Below are positions 7,279-30,645 of a stretch of 64,000 nucleotides of DNA, one piece after another. The notes below the pieces were generated by a model that searched no databases, was not told where the DNA came from, and was given only the letters and a program-made list of their open reading frames with translations. The first letter of the stretch is position 1. Each line of letters begins with the position of its first letter. This stretch comes from Pseudomonas allokribbensis (GTDB lineage Bacteria; Pseudomonadota; Gammaproteobacteria; Pseudomonadales; Pseudomonadaceae). The translations under genes and the position numbers were made by a program. The DNA is taken from positions 4,659,001 through 4,723,000 of the forward strand of contig NZ_CP062252.1 of NCBI RefSeq assembly GCF_014863605.1, given 5' to 3'.

Positions 7279-8625
7279 ATGAGCCAACCCTGGAGCCCTG
7301 ACAGCTGGCGCGCCTTGCCGATCCAGCAACAACCCCAATACCCCGACGCCGCGCACCTGCGCCAGGTCGAGCAGACGCTGGCCAGCTATCCGCCGCTGGT
7401 GTTTGCCGGTGAAGCGCGGGAGCTGCGTCGTCAGTTTGCCGAAGTCACCCAGGGCCGGGCGTTCCTGCTGCAGGGCGGCGACTGCGCGGAAAGCTTCGCC
7501 GAGTTCTCCGCCGCGAAGATTCGCGACACCTTCAAAGTGCTGCTGCAAATGGCGATCGTCATGACCTTCGCCGCCGGTTGCCCGGTGGTGAAAGTCGGGC
7601 GCATGGCCGGCCAGTTCGCCAAGCCGCGCTCGGCCAACGACGAGACCATCGACGGCGTGACCCTGCCGGCCTACCGTGGTGACATCGTCAACGGCATCGG
7701 CTTCGACTCGGCCAGCCGCGTGCCGGATCCGGAGCGTCTGCTGCAGTCCTATCACCAGTCCACCGCGACCCTCAACCTGTTGCGCGCCTTCGCCCAGGGC
7801 GGTTTTGCCGACCTGCATCAGGTGCACAAGTGGAACCTCGATTTCATCGCCAACTCGGCGCTGGCGGAGAAGTACAGCCACCTCGCCGACCGCATCGATG
7901 AGACCCTGGCCTTCATGCGTGCCTGCGGTATGGACAGCTCGCCGCAACTGCGCGAAACCAGTTTCTTCACGGCCCACGAAGCGCTGCTGCTGAACTACGA
8001 AGAAGCCTTCGTGCGCCGCGACAGCCTGACCAACGATTACTACGATTGCTCGGCGCACATGCTGTGGATCGGCGACCGCACCCGTCAGCTCGACGGCGCC
8101 CACGTCGAATTCCTGCGCGGCGTGAACAACCCGATCGGAGTGAAAGTCGGCCCGAGCATGAACCCCGACGACCTGATCCGCCTGATCGACGTGCTCAACC
8201 CGGACAACGATCCGGGCCGCCTCAACCTGATCGCACGGATGGGCGCGAACAAGGTTGGCGATCACCTGCCGGCGCTGATCCGCGCGGTGCAGCGTGAAGG
8301 CAAGCAGGTGCTGTGGAGTTCCGACCCGATGCACGGCAACACCATCAAGGCCAGCAGCGGCTACAAGACCCGCGACTTCGCGCAGATCCTTGGCGAGGTG
8401 AAGCAGTTCTTCCAGGTCCATGAAGCGGAAGGCAGCTACGCCGGCGGCATCCACATCGAGATGACCGGGCAGAACGTCACCGAGTGCATCGGTGGCGCGC
8501 GACCGATCACTGAAGATGGTTTGTCGGATCGCTATCACACCCATTGCGACCCACGGATGAACGCCGATCAGTCGCTGGAGCTGGCGTTTCTGATTGCCGA
8601 GACGCTGAAACAGGTCAAACGCTAA
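7279..8625 (+). CDS. 3-deoxy-7-phosphoheptulonate synthase, class II
   Basis: 448 residues from the ATG at 7279. It is a type II (plant-like) DAHP synthase, condensing PEP and erythrose-4-phosphate in the first step of the shikimate pathway. Seen: N-terminal [34 protein letters not shown] (metal-binding Cys), [10 protein letters not shown], and [12 protein letters not shown] with [12 protein letters not shown] near the C-terminus. A second, unrelated type I DAHP synthase lies at 22609-23685. The stop overlaps the convergent YcaQ-like gene by 4 bases. Confidence 0.95.
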
Positions 8626-9869
8626 ACCGCGATGACGTTGGCTCGGTCGTTTTCGACTTGAGCCAACGCCACCCGCAACCGCCCGGCACTTTCGCGCTGG
8701 CAATTGAGCAGCACCTGCTCCAGCCCCAACCAATCCGCCATCCGCCGCAAATTCCCCGCCAACGCCAGCATCCCCGCCTCATCCAGCCCCGGCTCTTCCT
8801 CGTGCACCGCATGCACCGCCAATCGCCCCACCGCCCGCTCGGCGCGCAGATCAACCCGCGCAGCAATCCGTTCGTTGTGCAGGAACGGCAGCACGTAATA
8901 GCCGTAGACCCGCTTGTCCTGCGGCGTATAAATCTCCAGCCGATAGCGGAAGTCGAATAACCGCTCGGTGCGACTGCGCTCCCAGATCAGCGAATCGAAC
9001 GGCGACAGCAATGCGCTGGCCTCGACTTTGCGCGGGACTTTCGGTTCGGGCAGGCAGTAAGCAATCTGACGCCAGCCAGCAACTTCGCAGGTCAGCAGTT
9101 GCCCGGCCTCGACCAGCTCCGCCAGGCGCGGACGGGCATCGGCAGGGTTCAGGCGGAAGTAATCGCGCAGGTCTTTTTCCGTGCCTACGCCCAACGCCTC
9201 AGCCGCGTGCAGCAGCAAACCGCGCTGCGCCTCGGACTCATCGGGCAATGGCTGTTGCAGCACGGACGCCGGGATCACTCGTTCCGGCAGGTCATACAGC
9301 CTTTCGAAGCCGCGCCGCCCGGCCACGGTGACTTCGCCGGCGGCAAACAACCATTCCAGCGCATGTTTTTCCGCGCTCCAGTCCCACCAGGGGCCGGCCT
9401 TTTCCTCGCGGGTCGACAGGCTGCCGGCGCCCAGCGCGCCCTGCTCTTCGACCGACGCCAGCACCCGGCGAATGGTGTCTTGTTGCTCACGGCCGAAACG
9501 CGCCAGTTGCTGATAGATATCTTCGCCCCGCTTGGCTCGCTGCATGCGCCAGCCCATCAGCGGGTACATCGACAGCGGCAGCAATGACGCTTCATGGCCC
9601 CAGTATTCGAACAGCGAACGACGTCGCCCCGAACTCCAGGCAGCCTGGTCGAGCAAGTCGGAAGGATAGGAACCGAGACGGGAAAACAGCGGCAGGTAGT
9701 GCGAGCGCACCACAGCGTTGACGGAGTCGATCTGCAACAGGCCGAGGCGTTCGATCAGCCGGTTGACGTGCATCGCCTTGACAGCCGGCGGCTGGCGCCC
9801 GTGAAACCCTTGGGCAGCCAGTGCCAGACGTCGAGCCTGTTTAAGGGAAAAGGACAATGTCGCGGGCAT
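8622..9869 (-). CDS. YcaQ/AlkX-type winged-helix DNA glycosylase
   Basis: 415 residues; the start at 9869 has GGAGGAACAC before it. It is of the HTH_42 family (E. coli YcaQ, Streptomyces AlkZ), monofunctional glycosylases that unhook interstrand crosslinks or remove bulky alkylated bases. Seen: the N-terminal winged-helix with [23 protein letters not shown], the central basic region, and [30 protein letters not shown] in the C-terminal third. Family membership is clear; whether it acts like YcaQ or AlkZ is inferred. An outward-facing DUF1127 gene follows. Confidence 0.85.
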
Positions 9870-11952: not shown

Positions 11953-12909
11953 ATGAATCCCAATCAATTGACCGAACAACTCGGGCTGTTTCTCGATGTG
12001 CTGGAGAGTGGCAGTTTTTCCGCCGCCTCACGCCGGCATCCGCTGACGCCATCGGCCGTCGCCCGGCGTATCGACAGCCTGGAAAGCGCTGTCGGCAGCC
12101 AGTTGTTCATCCGCAGCACTCATGCGGTGCGCGCCACACCGGCCGGTCTGGCGTTTGCCGAACGGGCGCGGCGGATTGTTGCCGAACTGCAACTGGCCCG
12201 CGCTGAAGCCGTTTCCCTGAGCAGCGCGCCGGAAGGCTTGATCCGGGTGGATGCGCCGGCAGCGTTCGGGCGTCGGCATCTGGCGCCGGTGATTGCCGAT
12301 TTTCTGGTGCTGTATCCGGGGCTGGACGTGCAGCTGCATCTGATCGACAGCTTCGTCGACATGGACGGCTCGAACCTGGGCAAGGTCGATCTGGTGTTGC
12401 GCGCCGGGCAAATGGCCGATACCCGACTGGTCGCCACACCGCTGGCGAGCATGGTGCGCATCGCTTGCGCCAGTCCCGACTATCTCAAGCGTCGGGGTGT
12501 GCCGAGCGAGCCGGCACAACTGGGTGAACATGACGGCCTCGATTGGGACGGCCTCGCCCCGCCCTTCGCCTGGCGATTCGAACAGGACGGGCAGATGCAG
12601 TTGCACCGCCCGGCGCGGATCCGCATGAGCGCCAACAACGCCGAGGCTCTGGTGTGCGGTGCACTTGCGGGCCTCGGGATCGCGCATCTTCCGACCTGGC
12701 TGGCGAGCGAATACCTGTTGCGTGGCGAACTGCTGCCGCTGTTCTGTGACAACGGCCTGCCAAAACCGGAGAGCACCGGCATCTACGCGCTGCGGCTGGA
12801 ACAACAGGCCAGCTCCCGCAGCCGCCTGCTGCTGGAATACCTCAAGACCCGCTTCAGCCCCGTGCCACCGTGGGATCTGGCACTGCAACGGGAGCTGGGC
12901 CGGCACTGA
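11953..12909 (+). CDS. LysR-family transcriptional regulator
   Basis: 318 residues: HTH at about 1-60 (FLDVLESGSFSAASRRHPLTPSAVARRIDSLE) and a periplasmic-binding-like effector domain from GLIRVDAPAAFGRRHLAPVI. It lies head-to-head with the TauE exporter gene across about 110 bases, the usual arrangement of a LysR regulator and its target. Effector unknown. Confidence 0.85.
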   Translation: MNPNQLTEQLGLFLDVLESGSFSAASRRHPLTPSAVARRIDSLESAVGSQLFIRSTHAVRATPAGLAFAERARRIVAELQLARAEAVSLSSAPEGLIRVDAPAAFGRRHLAPVIADFLVLYPGLDVQLHLIDSFVDMDGSNLGKVDLVLRAGQMADTRLVATPLASMVRIACASPDYLKRRGVPSEPAQLGEHDGLDWDGLAPPFAWRFEQDGQMQLHRPARIRMSANNAEALVCGALAGLGIAHLPTWLASEYLLRGELLPLFCDNGLPKPESTGIYALRLEQQASSRSRLLLEYLKTRFSPVPPWDLALQRELGRH

Positions 12910-12992
12910 CCGATTCGCCACCGGGCACAATTGTCTGGCGCATTAAAGATTCGAGCGCTAGATTCATCTGCATCACTGTTCAAGGCACCGAC

Positions 12993-13457
12993 ATGACCAC
13001 CACCCGCGACACCACTGACCACTGCGAAGAGCTGCTGCTCGACAATCAGGCCTGCTTCGCCCTGCATTCCACTTCGCTGATGATGACCAAGGTCTACAAA
13101 CCGCTGTTGCAAGCGCTTGGCCTGACCTATCCGCAGTATCTGGCGATGATGGTGCTGTGGGAGAAGGATGGTTTGACCGTCGGAGAAATCAGCACGCGCC
13201 TGCTGACCGATCCGGGTTCGCTGACCCCGCTGCTCAAGCGCCTGGAAGGTGAAGGTTTGCTGAGCCGAACTCGAAGCCGCGAGGATGAACGGGTGGTGAT
13301 CGTCGAATTGACCGCACAGGGCCGCGCCTTGAAAGACAAGGCCCGGACCGTTCCGCAATGCATTCTGGGGGCCAGTGGCTTCACGCTGGAGCGCCTGCAA
13401 AACCTGCAAGCCGAGTTGCAGGCCTTGCGCGGTCATTTGCAGGACAGCCTCACTTAA
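12993..13457 (+). CDS. ohrR: Organic-peroxide sensor OhrR (MarR family)
   Basis: 154 residues. It is a MarR-type repressor that leaves DNA when its reactive cysteine is oxidised by organic hydroperoxides. Seen: NQACFALHSTS with the peroxidatic Cys21, the winged-helix TRLLTDPGSLTPLLKRLEGEGLLSR, and Cys123 (VPQCILG) that fits the two-cysteine OhrR class. The target gene ohr follows in the same direction, separated by 282 bases with candidate operators and a REP-like hairpin. Confidence 0.92.
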   Translation: MTTTRDTTDHCEELLLDNQACFALHSTSLMMTKVYKPLLQALGLTYPQYLAMMVLWEKDGLTVGEISTRLLTDPGSLTPLLKRLEGEGLLSRTRSREDERVVIVELTAQGRALKDKARTVPQCILGASGFTLERLQNLQAELQALRGHLQDSLT

Positions 13458-26522: not shown

Positions 26523-26668
26523 TCATAACAGCGGTTTTAGCGTAGGCCAGACATTTTCCAGCAACTTGCCCTGGGCCCCGACCGCCGGGTGCAGACCATC
26601 GGCCTGCATCAAGTCGGGATGACCGCCGATTCCGTCGAGGAAAAACGGCACCAGCGGGATTTTTTTCT
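26523..26668 (-). pseudogene. Orphan 3' end of tesA
   Basis: Encodes the last 47 residues of TesA plus a TGA stop, in frame and with the same protein sequence as the end of the intact tesA, but with no start, domain I or promoter in front. DNA differs from the intact copy at three positions (26583, 26640, 26661), all synonymous. It is best read as the original tesA terminus, cut off from its gene by the cassette that follows. Confidence 0.9.
26525..26668 (-). repeat. Left copy of 144-bp direct repeat (tesA 3' end)
   Basis: 141 of 144 bases equal to 30042-30185, same orientation. Outside these limits the sequences diverge at once. It marks the left edge of the Hxs cassette. Confidence 0.95.
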
Positions 26669-26819
26669 GAGGAGATCCTGCCCAAAATTCTACCCCCCTT
26701 ACTACGCCTGTCGGATTTTGACCATGGAACACATAGCAACGTTAATTTCATATTGACATCACGATTGTCCGACGGAGAGACTCAGAGAGTAACCACACCC
26801 CTGATAAGGAAATCCAATA

Positions 26820-27104
26820 ATGAAAAATCGCTCCTTTTTGGTACCTATGGCGACTTTGGCAGCAGCAGTTGTTGCAGAGCATGCTTCAGCATCAGTACCT
26901 CACCAGATCATCGACCCCGCCACCGACCAAACAATCCCAACTCAATCGCCTCCTCAGAGCGAAAACCTTTCTGTTCGCGGCGGCAACGATTTGTTTACGT
27001 TTGTATTGAAGCGCGGGGACCAAGGTCAATTCATGGCCTACCACAGCTCTCACAGCTCCCACTCATCGCACAGTTCGCACAGCTCTCACCATTCGGGCTC
27101 CTGA
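26820..27104 (+). CDS. Precursor peptide with His-Ser-Ser repeats (HxsA-like)
   Basis: 94 residues; AAGGAAA stands before the ATG. A hydrophobic N-terminus (about 5-24, FLVPMATLAAAVVAEHASA) looks like a signal or anchor. The middle has a conserved-looking stretch NLSVRGGNDLFTFVLKRGDQG, and the tail from His75 is five HSS triplets followed by HHSGS. The serine codons vary from repeat to repeat, so the repeat is kept at protein level. In known His-Xaa-Ser systems such a protein is the proposed substrate of the paired radical SAM enzymes; the modification is unknown. Confidence 0.85.
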   Translation: MKNRSFLVPMATLAAAVVAEHASASVPHQIIDPATDQTIPTQSPPQSENLSVRGGNDLFTFVLKRGDQGQFMAYHSSHSSHSSHSSHSSHHSGS

Positions 27105-27105
27105 T

Positions 27106-27408
27106 ATGAAGTACGAGGTGGCACTTGTATTTGATGAGCAGCTCTACGACGCACAAGCGCTGCAAAAAGCTGCTTATCGCGCGATGAACTCGCTGACGGC
27201 TGATATTGCGCGTGCTGATGGGAAATTCAGCTGCGTTCTGTCCTCAAATATCGGCATCGACGAACCCACATTTCTGCTCGCTACTCAAGAATTCAAGAAG
27301 GACGTAGTCGACTACCAGCTTCGCCTCCGGCTGAATGCTGAAACTCTGCAGATCAAAAATCTGATCCTTGGACTGGCCTTCTCAAAAACCGGGCTGATCA
27401 GTGAGTAA
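27106..27408 (+). CDS. hxsD: HxsD-like protein
   Basis: 100 residues, starting one base after the precursor stop. VVDYQLRLRLNAET in the second half resembles the LLNDYxLRE motif by which the HxsD family was defined. Family members occur only beside HxsB/HxsC and have no known activity; a role in presenting the precursor is a guess. It overlaps the next gene by 8 bases, so translation is coupled. Confidence 0.75.
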   Translation: MKYEVALVFDEQLYDAQALQKAAYRAMNSLTADIARADGKFSCVLSSNIGIDEPTFLLATQEFKKDVVDYQLRLRLNAETLQIKNLILGLAFSKTGLISE

Positions 27409-28858
27409 ATTTCAGGCGCTTGACTTCTATCTACAGCATCGTCCTTACGAGCTGTTGCCATTCAAATTTGACCGTCTGAATGACTGTGAGTACGTCATTA
27501 TCAATATGGCAGGCGAGTATCACGTTTTACCGATACCGCTGCTCGAGCCACTGATCAACAGGACGCTACCGCTTACATCGGAGCTGATACCAACGCTCCG
27601 CTCAAAGCAATTCATACGATTTCCAGATGAGCAGACACCTCTACAGCTACTAGCTCTCAAGATTCGCACTCGCTTGTCCAGACTGGCTCAATTCACCAAT
27701 TTGCATATCTTTGTCGTCACCCTTCGCTGCGACCATAGCTGTCCCTATTGCCAAGTCTCCAGGCAGTCGGAAAGCAAAGGTGAATTCGACATGACTACAG
27801 AGATGGCTGACCGGTCATTGGATTTCGTTTTCATGTCCCCCAATCCAGCCATCAAAATTGAGTTTCAGGGCGGAGAGCCGTTGCTGAATTTTGAAATGGT
27901 GAGATACGTTGTCCTTAACGCCAAAAAACGCAACCTGAAAGAAGGTCGTGACCTTCAGTTCGTGATCGCAACCACGCTGTCGCTATTGACTGATGAGATG
28001 CTGGATTTCTGTAAGCAGCACAGCATAGTGCTTTCATCTTCCCTCGACGGACCAATGAGCATCCATAATGCCAATCGCCCGCGTCCTGGTCGGGATAGCC
28101 ACCAGCGCTTCGAAGAAGGGTTAGCGAAAGCACGAGCAGTACTCGGTTACGATCAAGTGTCTGCGCTGATGACGACCACCGACAAGAGCCTACCGCATGT
28201 ACGAGCCATCATTGATGAGTACTTACGTCTAGGCTTTGATGGGATTTTTCTCCGCACTCTCTCGCCATATGGCTTTGCGATCAAGACCAAGAAATTCCTG
28301 TCATATGACACTGAACGTTGGCTGGAATTTTACAAGGAAGGTCTTGAATACATCATCCAGCTGAACAAGTCCGGCGTACGATTTGTAGAGCAGTACTCTT
28401 CGCTTGTACTGGCAAAAATGCTCACATCAACAGACCCAGGATTCGTTGATCTGATGAATCCAGCAGGGGTTGGAATTGCTGCCATCGTGTTCAATTATGA
28501 TGGCTCGGTCTATGCCTCAGATGAAAGTCGTATGCTTGCAGAAATGGGCGACCATACCTTCAGATTAGGCAACATACTGGAACAATCCTATGAAGAGATC
28601 ATCCTTTCCGATCAATTGCTTGATGCACTGGAAAACTCCTTTACGCTGAGTGCTCCCATGTGTTCTGACTGTGCATTTGAACCCTATTGCGGCTCGGAGC
28701 CCGTCTACCATCACGCCATGCACAAGGATCTGGTAGGCAGGAAACCAGAATCCTCGTTTTGTAAGCGAAACATGGCGATCTTTAAGCACCTCCTAGAGTT
28801 GATGGAAAACGACGAAGAAACGAAACGGATTTTTATGGGGTGGGCCAATCGATGCTGA
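27401..28858 (+). CDS. hxsB: Radical SAM maturase, HxsB-like
   Basis: 485 residues from a GTG. Radical SAM cluster motif CDHSCPYC (Cys110, 114, 117) after a 100-residue N-terminal extension that may bind the peptide; FQGGEPLLN is the SAM-binding GGEP motif. The C-terminus has CSDCAFEPYC (421, 424, 430) and Cys454, a SPASM-like set for extra iron-sulfur clusters, as in peptide-modifying enzymes. Overlaps hxsD by 8 bases. Family call is by motif and neighbourhood. Confidence 0.85.
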   Translation: MSKFQALDFYLQHRPYELLPFKFDRLNDCEYVIINMAGEYHVLPIPLLEPLINRTLPLTSELIPTLRSKQFIRFPDEQTPLQLLALKIRTRLSRLAQFTNLHIFVVTLRCDHSCPYCQVSRQSESKGEFDMTTEMADRSLDFVFMSPNPAIKIEFQGGEPLLNFEMVRYVVLNAKKRNLKEGRDLQFVIATTLSLLTDEMLDFCKQHSIVLSSSLDGPMSIHNANRPRPGRDSHQRFEEGLAKARAVLGYDQVSALMTTTDKSLPHVRAIIDEYLRLGFDGIFLRTLSPYGFAIKTKKFLSYDTERWLEFYKEGLEYIIQLNKSGVRFVEQYSSLVLAKMLTSTDPGFVDLMNPAGVGIAAIVFNYDGSVYASDESRMLAEMGDHTFRLGNILEQSYEEIILSDQLLDALENSFTLSAPMCSDCAFEPYCGSEPVYHHAMHKDLVGRKPESSFCKRNMAIFKHLLELMENDEETKRIFMGWANRC

Positions 28859-30015
28859 AGCTCAGTGGAAAAATTATCCGTATCCACGCGGTTGATGTTT
28901 ACAAGGATCTCACGCTAATCAAGGTCTCCACGAACCGGAACCTTCCCGAAATCCTCCGGAGAGAAATGGCCTATCTGGCTTCTGAACTCCCTGTCCCCAT
29001 CGGATTCGCGCACTACCTTCTAACTGAGAAGCATCAGAATTTGGCTCAAGATCTACCACCAGATTCCGATTACTCGATTCTTCCGAACGATTACGACTAC
29101 ATTAGCAACAATGACATTGTCCGTCTTTCCGCTGACCGTCAAAGCATACGAGTTCTGTTTCGAGCCTCGTCGCCTAACAACAGCATCCTGCTGACCGAGC
29201 AATGCAACAACTACTGCCTCATGTGCTCTCAGCCTCCTAAAACGGCAGATGACTCATGGCTACTCGATGAGATCGAGAGCTTGATTCCGCTGATTCCTCG
29301 AGAGACCCGCGAATTAGGCTTCACGGGGGGGGAGCCGACGACCAACAAGGAGCGGTTTCTTAAAATTATTCGCCTGACAAAAAGCTATTTGCCAAGAACC
29401 GCTATCCATATCCTTTCGAACGGAAGAAGCTTCAAAGACCCATCGTTTGCCGAAGATTATGCAGCGATTGGATTACCAGATGCGATGGTCGGTATTCCTG
29501 TCTACTCAGACGATCCATCTCTGCATGATTACATCGTGCAGGCTCAAGGCGCATTCGAAGAAACCATACGAGGCATTCTGAATCTGAAGCGCTTGGGCCA
29601 GAGAGTGGAAATTCGAATCGTCATTCATAAGCTGTCAGTATCGCGACTTACTCAGCTATGTGAGTTCATTGCCCGCAACCTTCTGTTCGTCGATCAGGTC
29701 GCTTTGATGGGTCTTGAAATGATGGGGTTTACCCGCGCAAATCTTGACGAACTATGGATTGACCCCATCGAGTACAAAGACACGCTCAGCAAATCGGTGC
29801 AAATTCTTACCAAATATGGAATGAACGTATCGGTGTACAACCATCAGCTCTGTCTGGTTAACCCAGATATTCTTCCGTATTACCGAAAGTCGATCAGCGA
29901 CTGGAAAAACGAGTTCGCGCCGGAGTGCGAAGGGTGCCGAAAACAAGGCGAATGCGGAGGCTTTTTCGCGTCTGGGATCAAATTTGGATACAGCAAGCAA
30001 CTATCTCCCTTCTGA
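28852..30015 (+). CDS. hxsC: Radical SAM maturase, HxsC-like
   Basis: 387 residues from the ATG at 28852, which overlaps the hxsB stop by 7 bases; a GTG at 28840 is possible. Cluster motif CNNYCLMC (Cys118, 122, 125), GGEP motif in FTGGEPTTN, and a C-terminal CEGCRKQGEC (359, 362, 368) that could hold a further cluster. The paired HxsB/HxsC arrangement defines the His-Xaa-Ser system. It ends 27 bases before the right-hand tesA repeat. Confidence 0.85.
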   Translation: MLKLSGKIIRIHAVDVYKDLTLIKVSTNRNLPEILRREMAYLASELPVPIGFAHYLLTEKHQNLAQDLPPDSDYSILPNDYDYISNNDIVRLSADRQSIRVLFRASSPNNSILLTEQCNNYCLMCSQPPKTADDSWLLDEIESLIPLIPRETRELGFTGGEPTTNKERFLKIIRLTKSYLPRTAIHILSNGRSFKDPSFAEDYAAIGLPDAMVGIPVYSDDPSLHDYIVQAQGAFEETIRGILNLKRLGQRVEIRIVIHKLSVSRLTQLCEFIARNLLFVDQVALMGLEMMGFTRANLDELWIDPIEYKDTLSKSVQILTKYGMNVSVYNHQLCLVNPDILPYYRKSISDWKNEFAPECEGCRKQGECGGFFASGIKFGYSKQLSPF

Positions 30016-30039
30016 TCTACAACCTACCGCAAGGCCGAT

Positions 30040-30645
30040 TTATAACAGCGGTTTTAGCGTAGGCCAGACATTTTCCAGCAACTTGCCCTGGGCCCCGACT
30101 GCCGGGTGCAGACCATCGGCCTGCATCAAGTCGGGATGACCGCCGATTCCGTCGAGAAAAAACGGCACCAGCGGGATCTTTTTCTCCTCGGCCAGTTGGC
30201 CGTACACCTGCGCGAACGCATCGGTGTAGCGCTTGCCGTAATTGGGCGGCAATTGCATGCCGAGCAACAGCACCCGGGCACCGCTTTGACGGGAGCTGTC
30301 GATCATCGCCGCAAGGTTTTGTTGCAATTGCGTCGGCGGCATTCCGCGCAGGCCATCGTTGCCGCCCAACTCGAGGATCACCAGCTCCGGCTTATGCTCT
30401 GCAAGCAGCGCCGGCAGGCGCGCCTGGCCTCCGGCACTGGTGTCGCCGCTGATGGAGGCATTGACCACTTTATCGTCAAAACCTTCGGCCTTGAGCCGCT
30501 GCTCGAGCAGCGACACCCACCCCAACCGGGTATCCAGTCCGAAACCGGCGCTGATACTATCGCCAACGATCAGGACTGTACCCGCCGCTGCGTTCTGGGC
30601 CATGCACATCAAGGCCAGGCCAGCACTCAAAAACCACACACGCAT
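30040..30645 (-). CDS. tesA: Lysophospholipase/thioesterase I/arylesterase TesA (SGNH hydrolase)
   Basis: 201 residues from 30645 (GGAG upstream). Signal peptide 1-21, then nucleophile Ser30 in VGDSIS, the oxyanion Asn in GGNDGL, and Asp177/His180 in ADGLHP. It hydrolyses acyl-CoA, lysophospholipids and aryl esters in the periplasm. Residues 155-201, including the Asp-His pair, lie in the duplicated 144 bp, so the cassette insertion has replaced the gene's own end by an equivalent one (stop now TAA instead of TGA). Only 10 bases separate its start from that of the divergent ABC gene. Confidence 0.95.
   Translation of the reverse strand: MRVWFLSAGLALMCMAQNAAAGTVLIVGDSISAGFGLDTRLGWVSLLEQRLKAEGFDDKVVNASISGDTSAGGQARLPALLAEHKPELVILELGGNDGLRGMPPTQLQQNLAAMIDSSRQSGARVLLLGMQLPPNYGKRYTDAFAQVYGQLAEEKKIPLVPFFLDGIGGHPDLMQADGLHPAVGAQGKLLENVWPTLKPLL
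30042..30185 (-). repeat. Right copy of 144-bp direct repeat (tesA 3' end)
   Basis: Partner of 26525-26668. This copy is continuous with the intact tesA and encodes its last 47 residues, including the catalytic Asp and His. Confidence 0.95.

Follow-up and report, generated by a model that had tools for sequence, protein, structure and literature searches.

Between two copies of the 3' end of its tesA gene, Pseudomonas allokribbensis carries a four-gene hxs operon for a His-Xaa-Ser (Hxs) repeat peptide and its maturation. We analysed this cassette in a stretch of 64,000 nucleotides (contig NZ_CP062252.1, positions 4,659,001 to 4,723,000; "the window", to which unprefixed coordinates refer). 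Our preferred reading, to which we give a probability of about two in three, is that the cassette is an integrase-less, minimal descendant of small tyrosine-integrase hxs elements that enter protein-coding genes, that gene conversion has homogenised its two tesA ends, and that host recombination has moved it. We put forward more tentatively, at slightly under even odds, a wider statement: that the minimal Hxs cassette outlives its recombinase, spreading through duplicated-end homology arms that are matched by conversion without harm to tesA, and that integrase-bearing relatives recurrently give diverse Pseudomonas TesA proteins the same foreign C-terminal half with its Asp-His pair.

The cassette lies at a clean insertion site in tesA

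A repeat search of the window found a 144-nt direct repeat at 26525-26668 and 30042-30185, identical at 141 of 144 positions (98%), with a start-to-start distance of 3517 bp. With the stop codons included (26523-26668 and 30040-30185), 142 of 146 sites are the same in both copies. Three of the differences fall at third codon positions (dN, the nonsynonymous divergence, is 0 in the tail), and the fourth is in the stop codon, which is TGA in the left copy and TAA in the right. The left copy (26523..26668, minus strand) is an orphan that comprises precursor codons 155-201 and the stop. The right copy (30040..30185, minus strand) is host-like in sequence and completes an intact tesA of 201 aa (30040..30645, minus strand; start codon at 30645, stop ending at 30040), which matched PF13472 (2.7e-30) and NF007819 (205 bits, below the cut-off of 270). 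Its product retains Asp177 and His180 (precursor numbering), which we take, from the TesA family, to be catalytic. An earlier reading of the letters alone (the original prediction) had described this repeat, with its third-position differences, its unlike stops and the enclosed cassette, as well as the completed gene with both residues, and these descriptions were borne out.

Four plus-strand genes lie between the copies: hxsA2, encoding the His-Xaa-Ser repeat peptide (26820..27104; NF038296, 106.6 bits, E 1e-30), hxsD (27106..27408; TIGR03976, 45.7 bits, just under the cut-off of 50), and the radical SAM maturase genes hxsB (27401..28858; TIGR03978, 619.6 bits) and hxsC (28840..30015; TIGR03977, 392.1 bits). 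An HxsA-type repeat peptide, HxsB, HxsC and HxsD are thus all present, with hxsA2, hxsB and hxsC above the curated cut-offs. At the right junction, the sequence has a 24-bp spacer (30016..30039) from the hxsC stop to the tesA stop. We know of no established function for the product of the operon.

When the flanks were joined by removing the element and one repeat copy, 984 of 984 positions aligned without a gap to a cassette-free relative, G029, at 96.85% identity, and the 40 bp past the stop of the left copy were identical to the G029 empty site. The insertion was therefore clean. As comparable tesA repeats in relatives also reach BLAST E values of 6e-67 to 7e-73, the repeat in the window is not a product of chance.

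Hxs cassettes occur at tesA and at other sites

Among 398 Pseudomonas genomes, 53 encoded an HxsB-like protein and 15 a close one (at least 72% identity). The 144-bp query gave a double match in four of the 398 (G000, which is the genome of the window, G049, G162 and G216), each with a close hxs cassette between the copies. This count is a lower bound, with two candidates scored per genome and 353 of the 398 genomes matched at all, and it misses repeats near 67% identity (G207, G030). Five of the 15 close cassettes are at tesA (the four double-match genomes and G207). The other ten had no tesA within the 12-19 kb around the close HxsB, and four of these ten (G372, G004, G059, G397) had part of a LysR gene as a repeat or an orphan piece. 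The original prediction had tied related cassettes to a tesA-derived repeat, which fits the first five and not the ten. We also found 38 loci in named genomes, of which 27 were examined (L080-L106, with L107-L117 left out). The hxs genes were at tesA in six of these 27 (L080, L083, L084, L087, L089, L104); L083 equals G216 in layout and percentages, and the two are counted once.

Integrase-bearing elements appear to make a TesA chimera

Complete elements are present at tesA in G207 (locus L065) and in P. laurylsulfativorans AP3_22 (L084). Both have the same layout: an orphan tesA end, a tyrosine integrase, hxsA-D-B-C, about 2.5 kb of further DNA and an intact tesA. The integrase (PF00589, 1.1e-16) is 91% identical between L065 and L084, and the further DNA of G207 has a KilA-N-like match below the gathering score. 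G030 has the same integrase (87%) next to an orphan copy at tesA and no hxs genes. Its element (L148:7564-13594) carries HNH and Rha-type genes, the cargo of the tesA integrase being varied and phage-like. No conjugation or mobilisation domain was found in the five tesA-element cargo proteins searched.

The orphan copies in G207, L084 and G030 all start at one 17-bp core, TTGCAACAAAAYCTTGC (LQQNL, from precursor codon 107), which lies 288 nt from the end of the tesA gene, stop included. Past this core, the element tails are 94.7-97.2% identical among the three elements and 62-71% identical to the seven native tails compared, while the same three hosts share 86-88% identity in their N-terminal parts and the orphan copies have 82-90% identity to other native tails. 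Because the tails are alike across hosts and unlike native ones, while the orphan copies are native-like, the tail of the intact tesA in these three genomes is element-borne. It spans the last 95 codons, the first five of which read the same in native and element versions, and the chimeric genes (L065:14641-15252, L084:15250-15861, L148:13918-14529) switch at LQQNL. Judged by these alignments, the complete elements swap the last 90-95 of the 201 TesA residues for a tail of their own, making a TesA chimera; mobile elements would thus exchange part of an enzyme gene from a fixed codon onwards, and the exchanged part includes the active-site Asp-His pair. The proposal of a foreign tesA end that resets the gene, part of the original prediction, therefore stands for these three elements, with their element-borne tail and native orphan, and falls for the window, as described below.

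To follow this tail we used a tail-restricted protein search, in which 120 of 6692 hits were listed and 23 TesA clusters were compared from those listed. Among the matches listed, 17 of the 23 clusters (P0001-P0017) share the tail at 92-100%, and their N-terminal halves are 75-99% like that of the window. This contrast in identity between tail and N-terminal half suggests that the 17 are chimeric, most of them judged without an orphan native copy for comparison. The native source of the tail may be the P. guineae type (91%, P0018), among the matches listed.

The same layout recurs at a LysR gene, and modules seem to be exchanged

Five close Hxs elements (L081, L085, L086, L096, L070) share another site, the 3' end of a LysR regulator gene (PF03466, PF00126), with repeats of 53-138 bp. 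In L088, an intact integrase of a second type (PF00589; 44% identical to the tesA type) adjoins an orphan piece of the LysR gene beginning at codon 271. The break in L070 and L086 is at this place too, and their inner arm is similar. The tesA-like layout thus recurs at the LysR gene with a different integrase. The LysR attachment-site elements, with their break near codon 271, are at L088:5981-7596, L070:6813-8183, L086:9079-9215 and L081:9064-9199. Searches for the second integrase type used the whole L088 integrase as query. They found a relative (73%) in L070 that is split into three pieces in two frames and is therefore decayed. With tesA and the LysR regulator gene as defined attachment genes, these elements provide the hxs operons with a concrete means of mobility.

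The hxsBC tree has 25 rows: 20 of the 27 named-genome loci together with the window, L062, L065, L069 and L070. It leaves out L091, L097, L100, L102, L103, L105 and L106, and also the other G loci, which by position and percentages are the same genome as a named locus. In this tree G207 (tesA) groups with L088 (LysR; 97/92) and L084 (tesA) with L070 (LysR; 86/71). The hxs operons of the two integrase-bearing tesA elements, G207 and L084, were rejected as sisters by the approximately unbiased (AU) test (p-AU 1.5e-67). Since the groups cross target genes and this sisterhood is rejected, the elements seem to have swapped operon and integrase modules.

In L086, the two copies of the LysR-end repeat (9079-9215 versus 12993-13130) match fully over roughly the first 80 bp from the stop, after which identity drops sharply; this looks like the edge of a gene-conversion tract. 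At a further Hxs site, L082 has a 300-bp repeat with 99% identity (8136-8435 and 12671-12970), which we take to be the end of a Fis-type regulator gene with palindromic repeat DNA.

Minimal cassettes lack the integrase and have host-matched ends

The cassette of the window belongs to a minimal form present in eight genomes: those of the window, G162, CROZ-RG-20F-R04-15 (CROZ), TH15, G049, dw_612, ANT_J12 and P. fluorescens PS858. The inner left junctions of the eight align with each other. In the window this junction is 26669..26744 (plus strand; limits from the alignment of the eight cassettes and from blastn), with a conserved TGTCGGATTT at 26709. It has the eroded form common to the other minimal cassettes and no blastn match to the integrase-bearing elements. 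The sole inter-repeat part that does match the integrase-bearing Hxs elements at tesA, as well as an Hxs element elsewhere, is the operon with some 75 bp upstream (26745..30015, plus strand), and its blastn limits were the same against L065, L084 and L082.

No integrase was found among the open reading frames (ORFs) of the window's element, and the second integrase type had no match in the window between 25 and 31 kb. The tesA-type (type 1) integrase had no relative that we could find in the genome of the window; as a query it matched 57 of the 398 genomes, and G000 was not among them. L065, L084 and G030 have the recombination core at both ends. In the window, the 17-bp core (TTGCAACAAAACCTTGC; 30311..30327, minus strand), which is the crossover place of the integrase-bearing relatives, occurs once and outside the repeat, so that no attL/attR pair remains.

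By local alignment, the repeats of the eight minimal cassettes measure 124-161 bp (the 124 bp of CROZ being trimmed at both ends), compared to 289 bp in G207 and L084. A constant 144-bp boundary across strains, as originally predicted, was thus not observed. Because four orphan copies (G049, dw_612, ANT_J12, PS858) retain eroded tesA-like DNA past the near-identical part, the boundary seems to shrink from inside.

For 16 of the 16 tail copies, the nearest copy was the partner in the same genome, CROZ_L and CROZ_R being tied with G162. Synonymous divergence (dS) between left and right copies was 0-0.094 within a genome, versus 0.20-0.79 between the right copies of different genomes. This contrast, together with the homologous inner junctions, argues for gene conversion after a shared origin and not for eight separate insertions. 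In the hxsBC tree the minimal cassettes form one group (support 63/100). The dN/dS ratios of hxsB and hxsC are 0.03-0.12, indicating purifying selection; the operon is therefore maintained by selection. The window offers an example of an element without an integrase that keeps host-matched repeats, which bears on the persistence and movement of integrase-less genomic islands.

Some minimal cassettes appear to have moved between hosts

The TH15 cassette groups with those of the window, G162 and CROZ (99/100), while its flanking genes group with those of dw_612 and ANT_J12 (100/100). Forcing either topology on the other data set was rejected (p-AU 4e-13 for the flanks; 0.002 and 5e-42 for the cassette), and the two TH15 tail copies differ from each other at 1 of 138 sites. 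Some points temper this conflict. The TH15 groups were defined after the distances had been seen; an unrooted eight-row tree of the cassette is not enough on its own to set TH15 apart from the other clade (93/97); and the TH15 tails are barely nearer to the flank sisters (12-15 differences in 138) than to the cassette sisters (15-18), the right copy having been compared in full and the left copy for its nearest only.

In G162 and CROZ the left copies end in TATGA and the right copies in TTTGA. Empty sites sorted by their downstream sequence end in TATGA in 31 of 31 cases for the G162/CROZ host type and in TTTGA in 10 of 10 for the other type (14 of 15 stretches were used in one set, L171 being a neighbouring stretch that was left out). 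Since the right ends are TTTGA while the empty sites of the host type are all TATGA, the right ends look like donor scars beside the cassette, of the kind expected from host recombination that crosses over within the tesA ends. The TTTGA may come from an element tail instead, since element tails also end in TTTGA.

A proposed origin of the minimal form

We propose that complete elements recombine at the 17-bp core in tesA and make the gene whole again with the tail that they carry. The minimal lineage would then have lost the integrase, the inner part of the orphan with its core, and the other cargo, leaving the hxs operon beside the tesA stop; the absence of these parts is observed, and their deletion is our proposal. 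To judge from the dS contrast, gene conversion in each host would keep the two tesA ends alike and would have erased any foreign tail. With the repeats as homology arms, host recombination could carry the cassette between tesA loci, as one tree conflict and two apparent donor scars suggest, and could also delete it cleanly and restore the empty site. On this scheme tesA would stay intact throughout.

The scheme is weakest where it derives the minimal form from an integrase element, because no tesA-site intermediate was found and the similarity of the junctions is weak. Several observations weigh against it. No intermediate with a decayed integrase was found at tesA: the second integrase type had no match in the eight minimal loci, and type 1 had none in L080, L083, L087, L089, L104 or the genome of the window (the L062 and L069 loci lay outside this search, and their genomes had no match to type 1 at E 1e-60). 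The decayed integrases that we saw all belonged to Hxs elements at sites other than tesA (L070, L092, L093). The left inner junction of the minimal form does not align with the complete elements, and the likeness at the right junction is weak and partly due to the hxsC stop. Deriving the minimal junctions from complete-element ends by direct alignment was accordingly set aside as weak, with 0-16 of 500 shuffles reaching the score for seven cassettes and 98 of 500 for that of the window. Neither of the two integrase-bearing tesA elements has hxsBC genes sister to those of the minimal group, and a single clade of all tesA-site cassettes was rejected (p-AU 5e-47), so the minimal group need not descend from the tesA integrase lineage. 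Finally, bootstrap support for monophyly of the minimal group is just 63%, and cassettes of the A and B clades differ more at third positions (0.40-0.47) than their flanks do (0.22-0.35).

In one alternative, the minimal cassette never had the tesA integrase. The hxs operon would have been joined to tesA by one-sided (homology-facilitated illegitimate) recombination, duplicating the gene end without loss, and the target shared with the integrase elements would be a coincidence or a neutral landing place. The inner boundary of the repeats (precursor codon ~143-155) does differ from the integrase core (codon 107), the shared block is the operon alone, and the hxsBC genes are not sisters, as just noted. 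This account, however, needs two unrelated routes to the same operon, gene and orientation. Moreover, 14 of the 25 elements in the hxsBC tree (the eight minimal and two integrase-bearing elements at tesA, and L070, L081, L086 and L088 at LysR) have a recognised orphan gene end upstream of hxsA, which is the layout of an integrase element. We regard one-sided recombination as unlikely, although it survives better than the other alternatives.

Another possibility is pure vertical descent from one old insertion, with very frequent loss, with conversion and with no transfer from host to host. Within the two cassette clades, cassettes and flanks have indeed diverged to a similar extent in several pairs (0.318 versus 0.311 for the window and G162; 0.275 versus 0.272 for G049 and dw_612). 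On the other hand, the TH15 conflict and the AU tests speak against it, as do the apparent donor-type ends in G162 and CROZ and the near-identical duplication in only four of the 398 genomes, a lower bound. Strict vertical descent is refuted if TH15 stands and we think it improbable; a mixed form is possible.

The tesA end in the window is of host type

Our preferred reading, in which conversion has homogenised the ends, can be compared with a recent insertion, in which an integrating element would have brought to the window another strain's tesA end that completes the gene. Complete relatives do so, and the empty site of the window is precise. The tail of tesA in the window, however, is host-like: it is 96.1% identical to G029, next to 96.8% for the N-terminal part, and the two copies are equally near to G029 (139 of 146 sites, seven differences each). 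Of the 29 loci L033-L061, 27 gave an empty-site tesA, while the remaining two, L036 (G162) and L054 (G030), both bear elements. The stop was TGA in 27 of the 27 scored empty sites, and the TAA in the window is a private change. It is not an element-borne stop either, since TGA is the stop in all three element tails and in the right copy of each of the other seven minimal cassettes. With both copies equidistant from G029 and a private TAA, we detected no foreign end in the window and rejected its presence. A recent insertion is also at odds with an element that contains no integrase, a genome in which no relative of one was found, and a core outside the repeat. We therefore give it little credence.

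Movement of the minimal cassette in trans by tesA-type integrases of co-resident elements is very improbable: such integrases occur in the genus (G207, L084, G030; at least 87% identity), but the single core outside the repeat leaves no attL/attR pair, and the genome of the window yielded no relative of the integrase. A transposon with a target-site duplication was rejected, as every listed inter-repeat ORF of at least 60 aa overlaps an hxs gene or the left repeat. It is also disfavoured by a repeat that is 144 bp long and a gene end. No inverted repeat of 20 or more nucleotides was found to bracket the element, a minimum length that shorter ones would escape.

Comparison with known systems

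Phage 21 and the element e14 use the same gene, icd. In Escherichia coli, e14 integrates in the 3' part of icd, supplies the end of the gene and leaves a 163-bp duplicated fragment at its far side, according to the consulted part of PMC6379469. The original prediction had presented restoration of a protein-coding target as a departure from the pattern at tRNA genes; it is an old observation, and the tesA/Hxs case is a variant of it. Like e14, the tesA elements use the 3' part of a protein-coding gene, supply its end and have a duplicated fragment at the far side. Unlike e14, the complete tesA elements restore 95 of 201 codons and carry an Hxs peptide-maturation operon, and the element of the window has lost its integrase and has a repeat homogenised to host type. 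The latter is thus e14-like in its duplicated gene end, its intact target gene and its clean empty site; it is not so in integrase, paired core or foreign end.

Protein-coding attachment genes are also used by SGI1-type and other integrative mobilizable elements, at the 3' ends of trmE and yicC and at dusA, and by SXT at prfC; the portion of PMC8409611 consulted describes the frame of dusA and prfC as restored with an altered terminus, and recombination modules as thought to be exchanged among SGI1-type and related elements. The tesA elements differ from these in cargo and integrase. Unlike tesA, dusA and prfC are entered at the 5' end, and unlike integrative mobilizable elements, the tesA elements had no mobility domain in the cargo proteins searched. 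TIGER/Islander surveys found many islands in protein-coding genes, often reconstituting the gene entered as at tesA, and tesA is not among the targets named in the sections of PMC12884075 consulted. Narrow literature searches, which do not show absence from print, did not find tesA as an attachment gene; searches equally narrow found no published account of Hxs elements of this kind and no literature on integration-made chimeric proteins or on repeats with lost integrases.

The Hxs system was reportedly described computationally by Haft and Basu. Their work on Hxs is cited in the consulted text of PMC9062424, and hxs genes are named in a genome comparison of P. aeruginosa (PMC8446631, in the part consulted). 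The Hxs genes studied here are themselves as in the known system, and the difference is their carriage on elements that use the 3' ends of genes.

Other carriers and a second hxs type

Plasmids and phages were rejected as carriers of the close relatives. The best plasmid HxsB was 65% identical (411 records match), and the integrase matched one plasmid at 32.5% over part of its length. HxsB was found in two phage records at less than 60% identity and the integrase in five at 38.9% at best; in viral contigs, two stretches fitted a pattern, neither of them confirmed. A distant second type of hxsB-hxsC, ~39-40% identical to that of the window, is present in L077, L078 and L079 (G059, G352 and G119, respectively), and G059 also has the close type.

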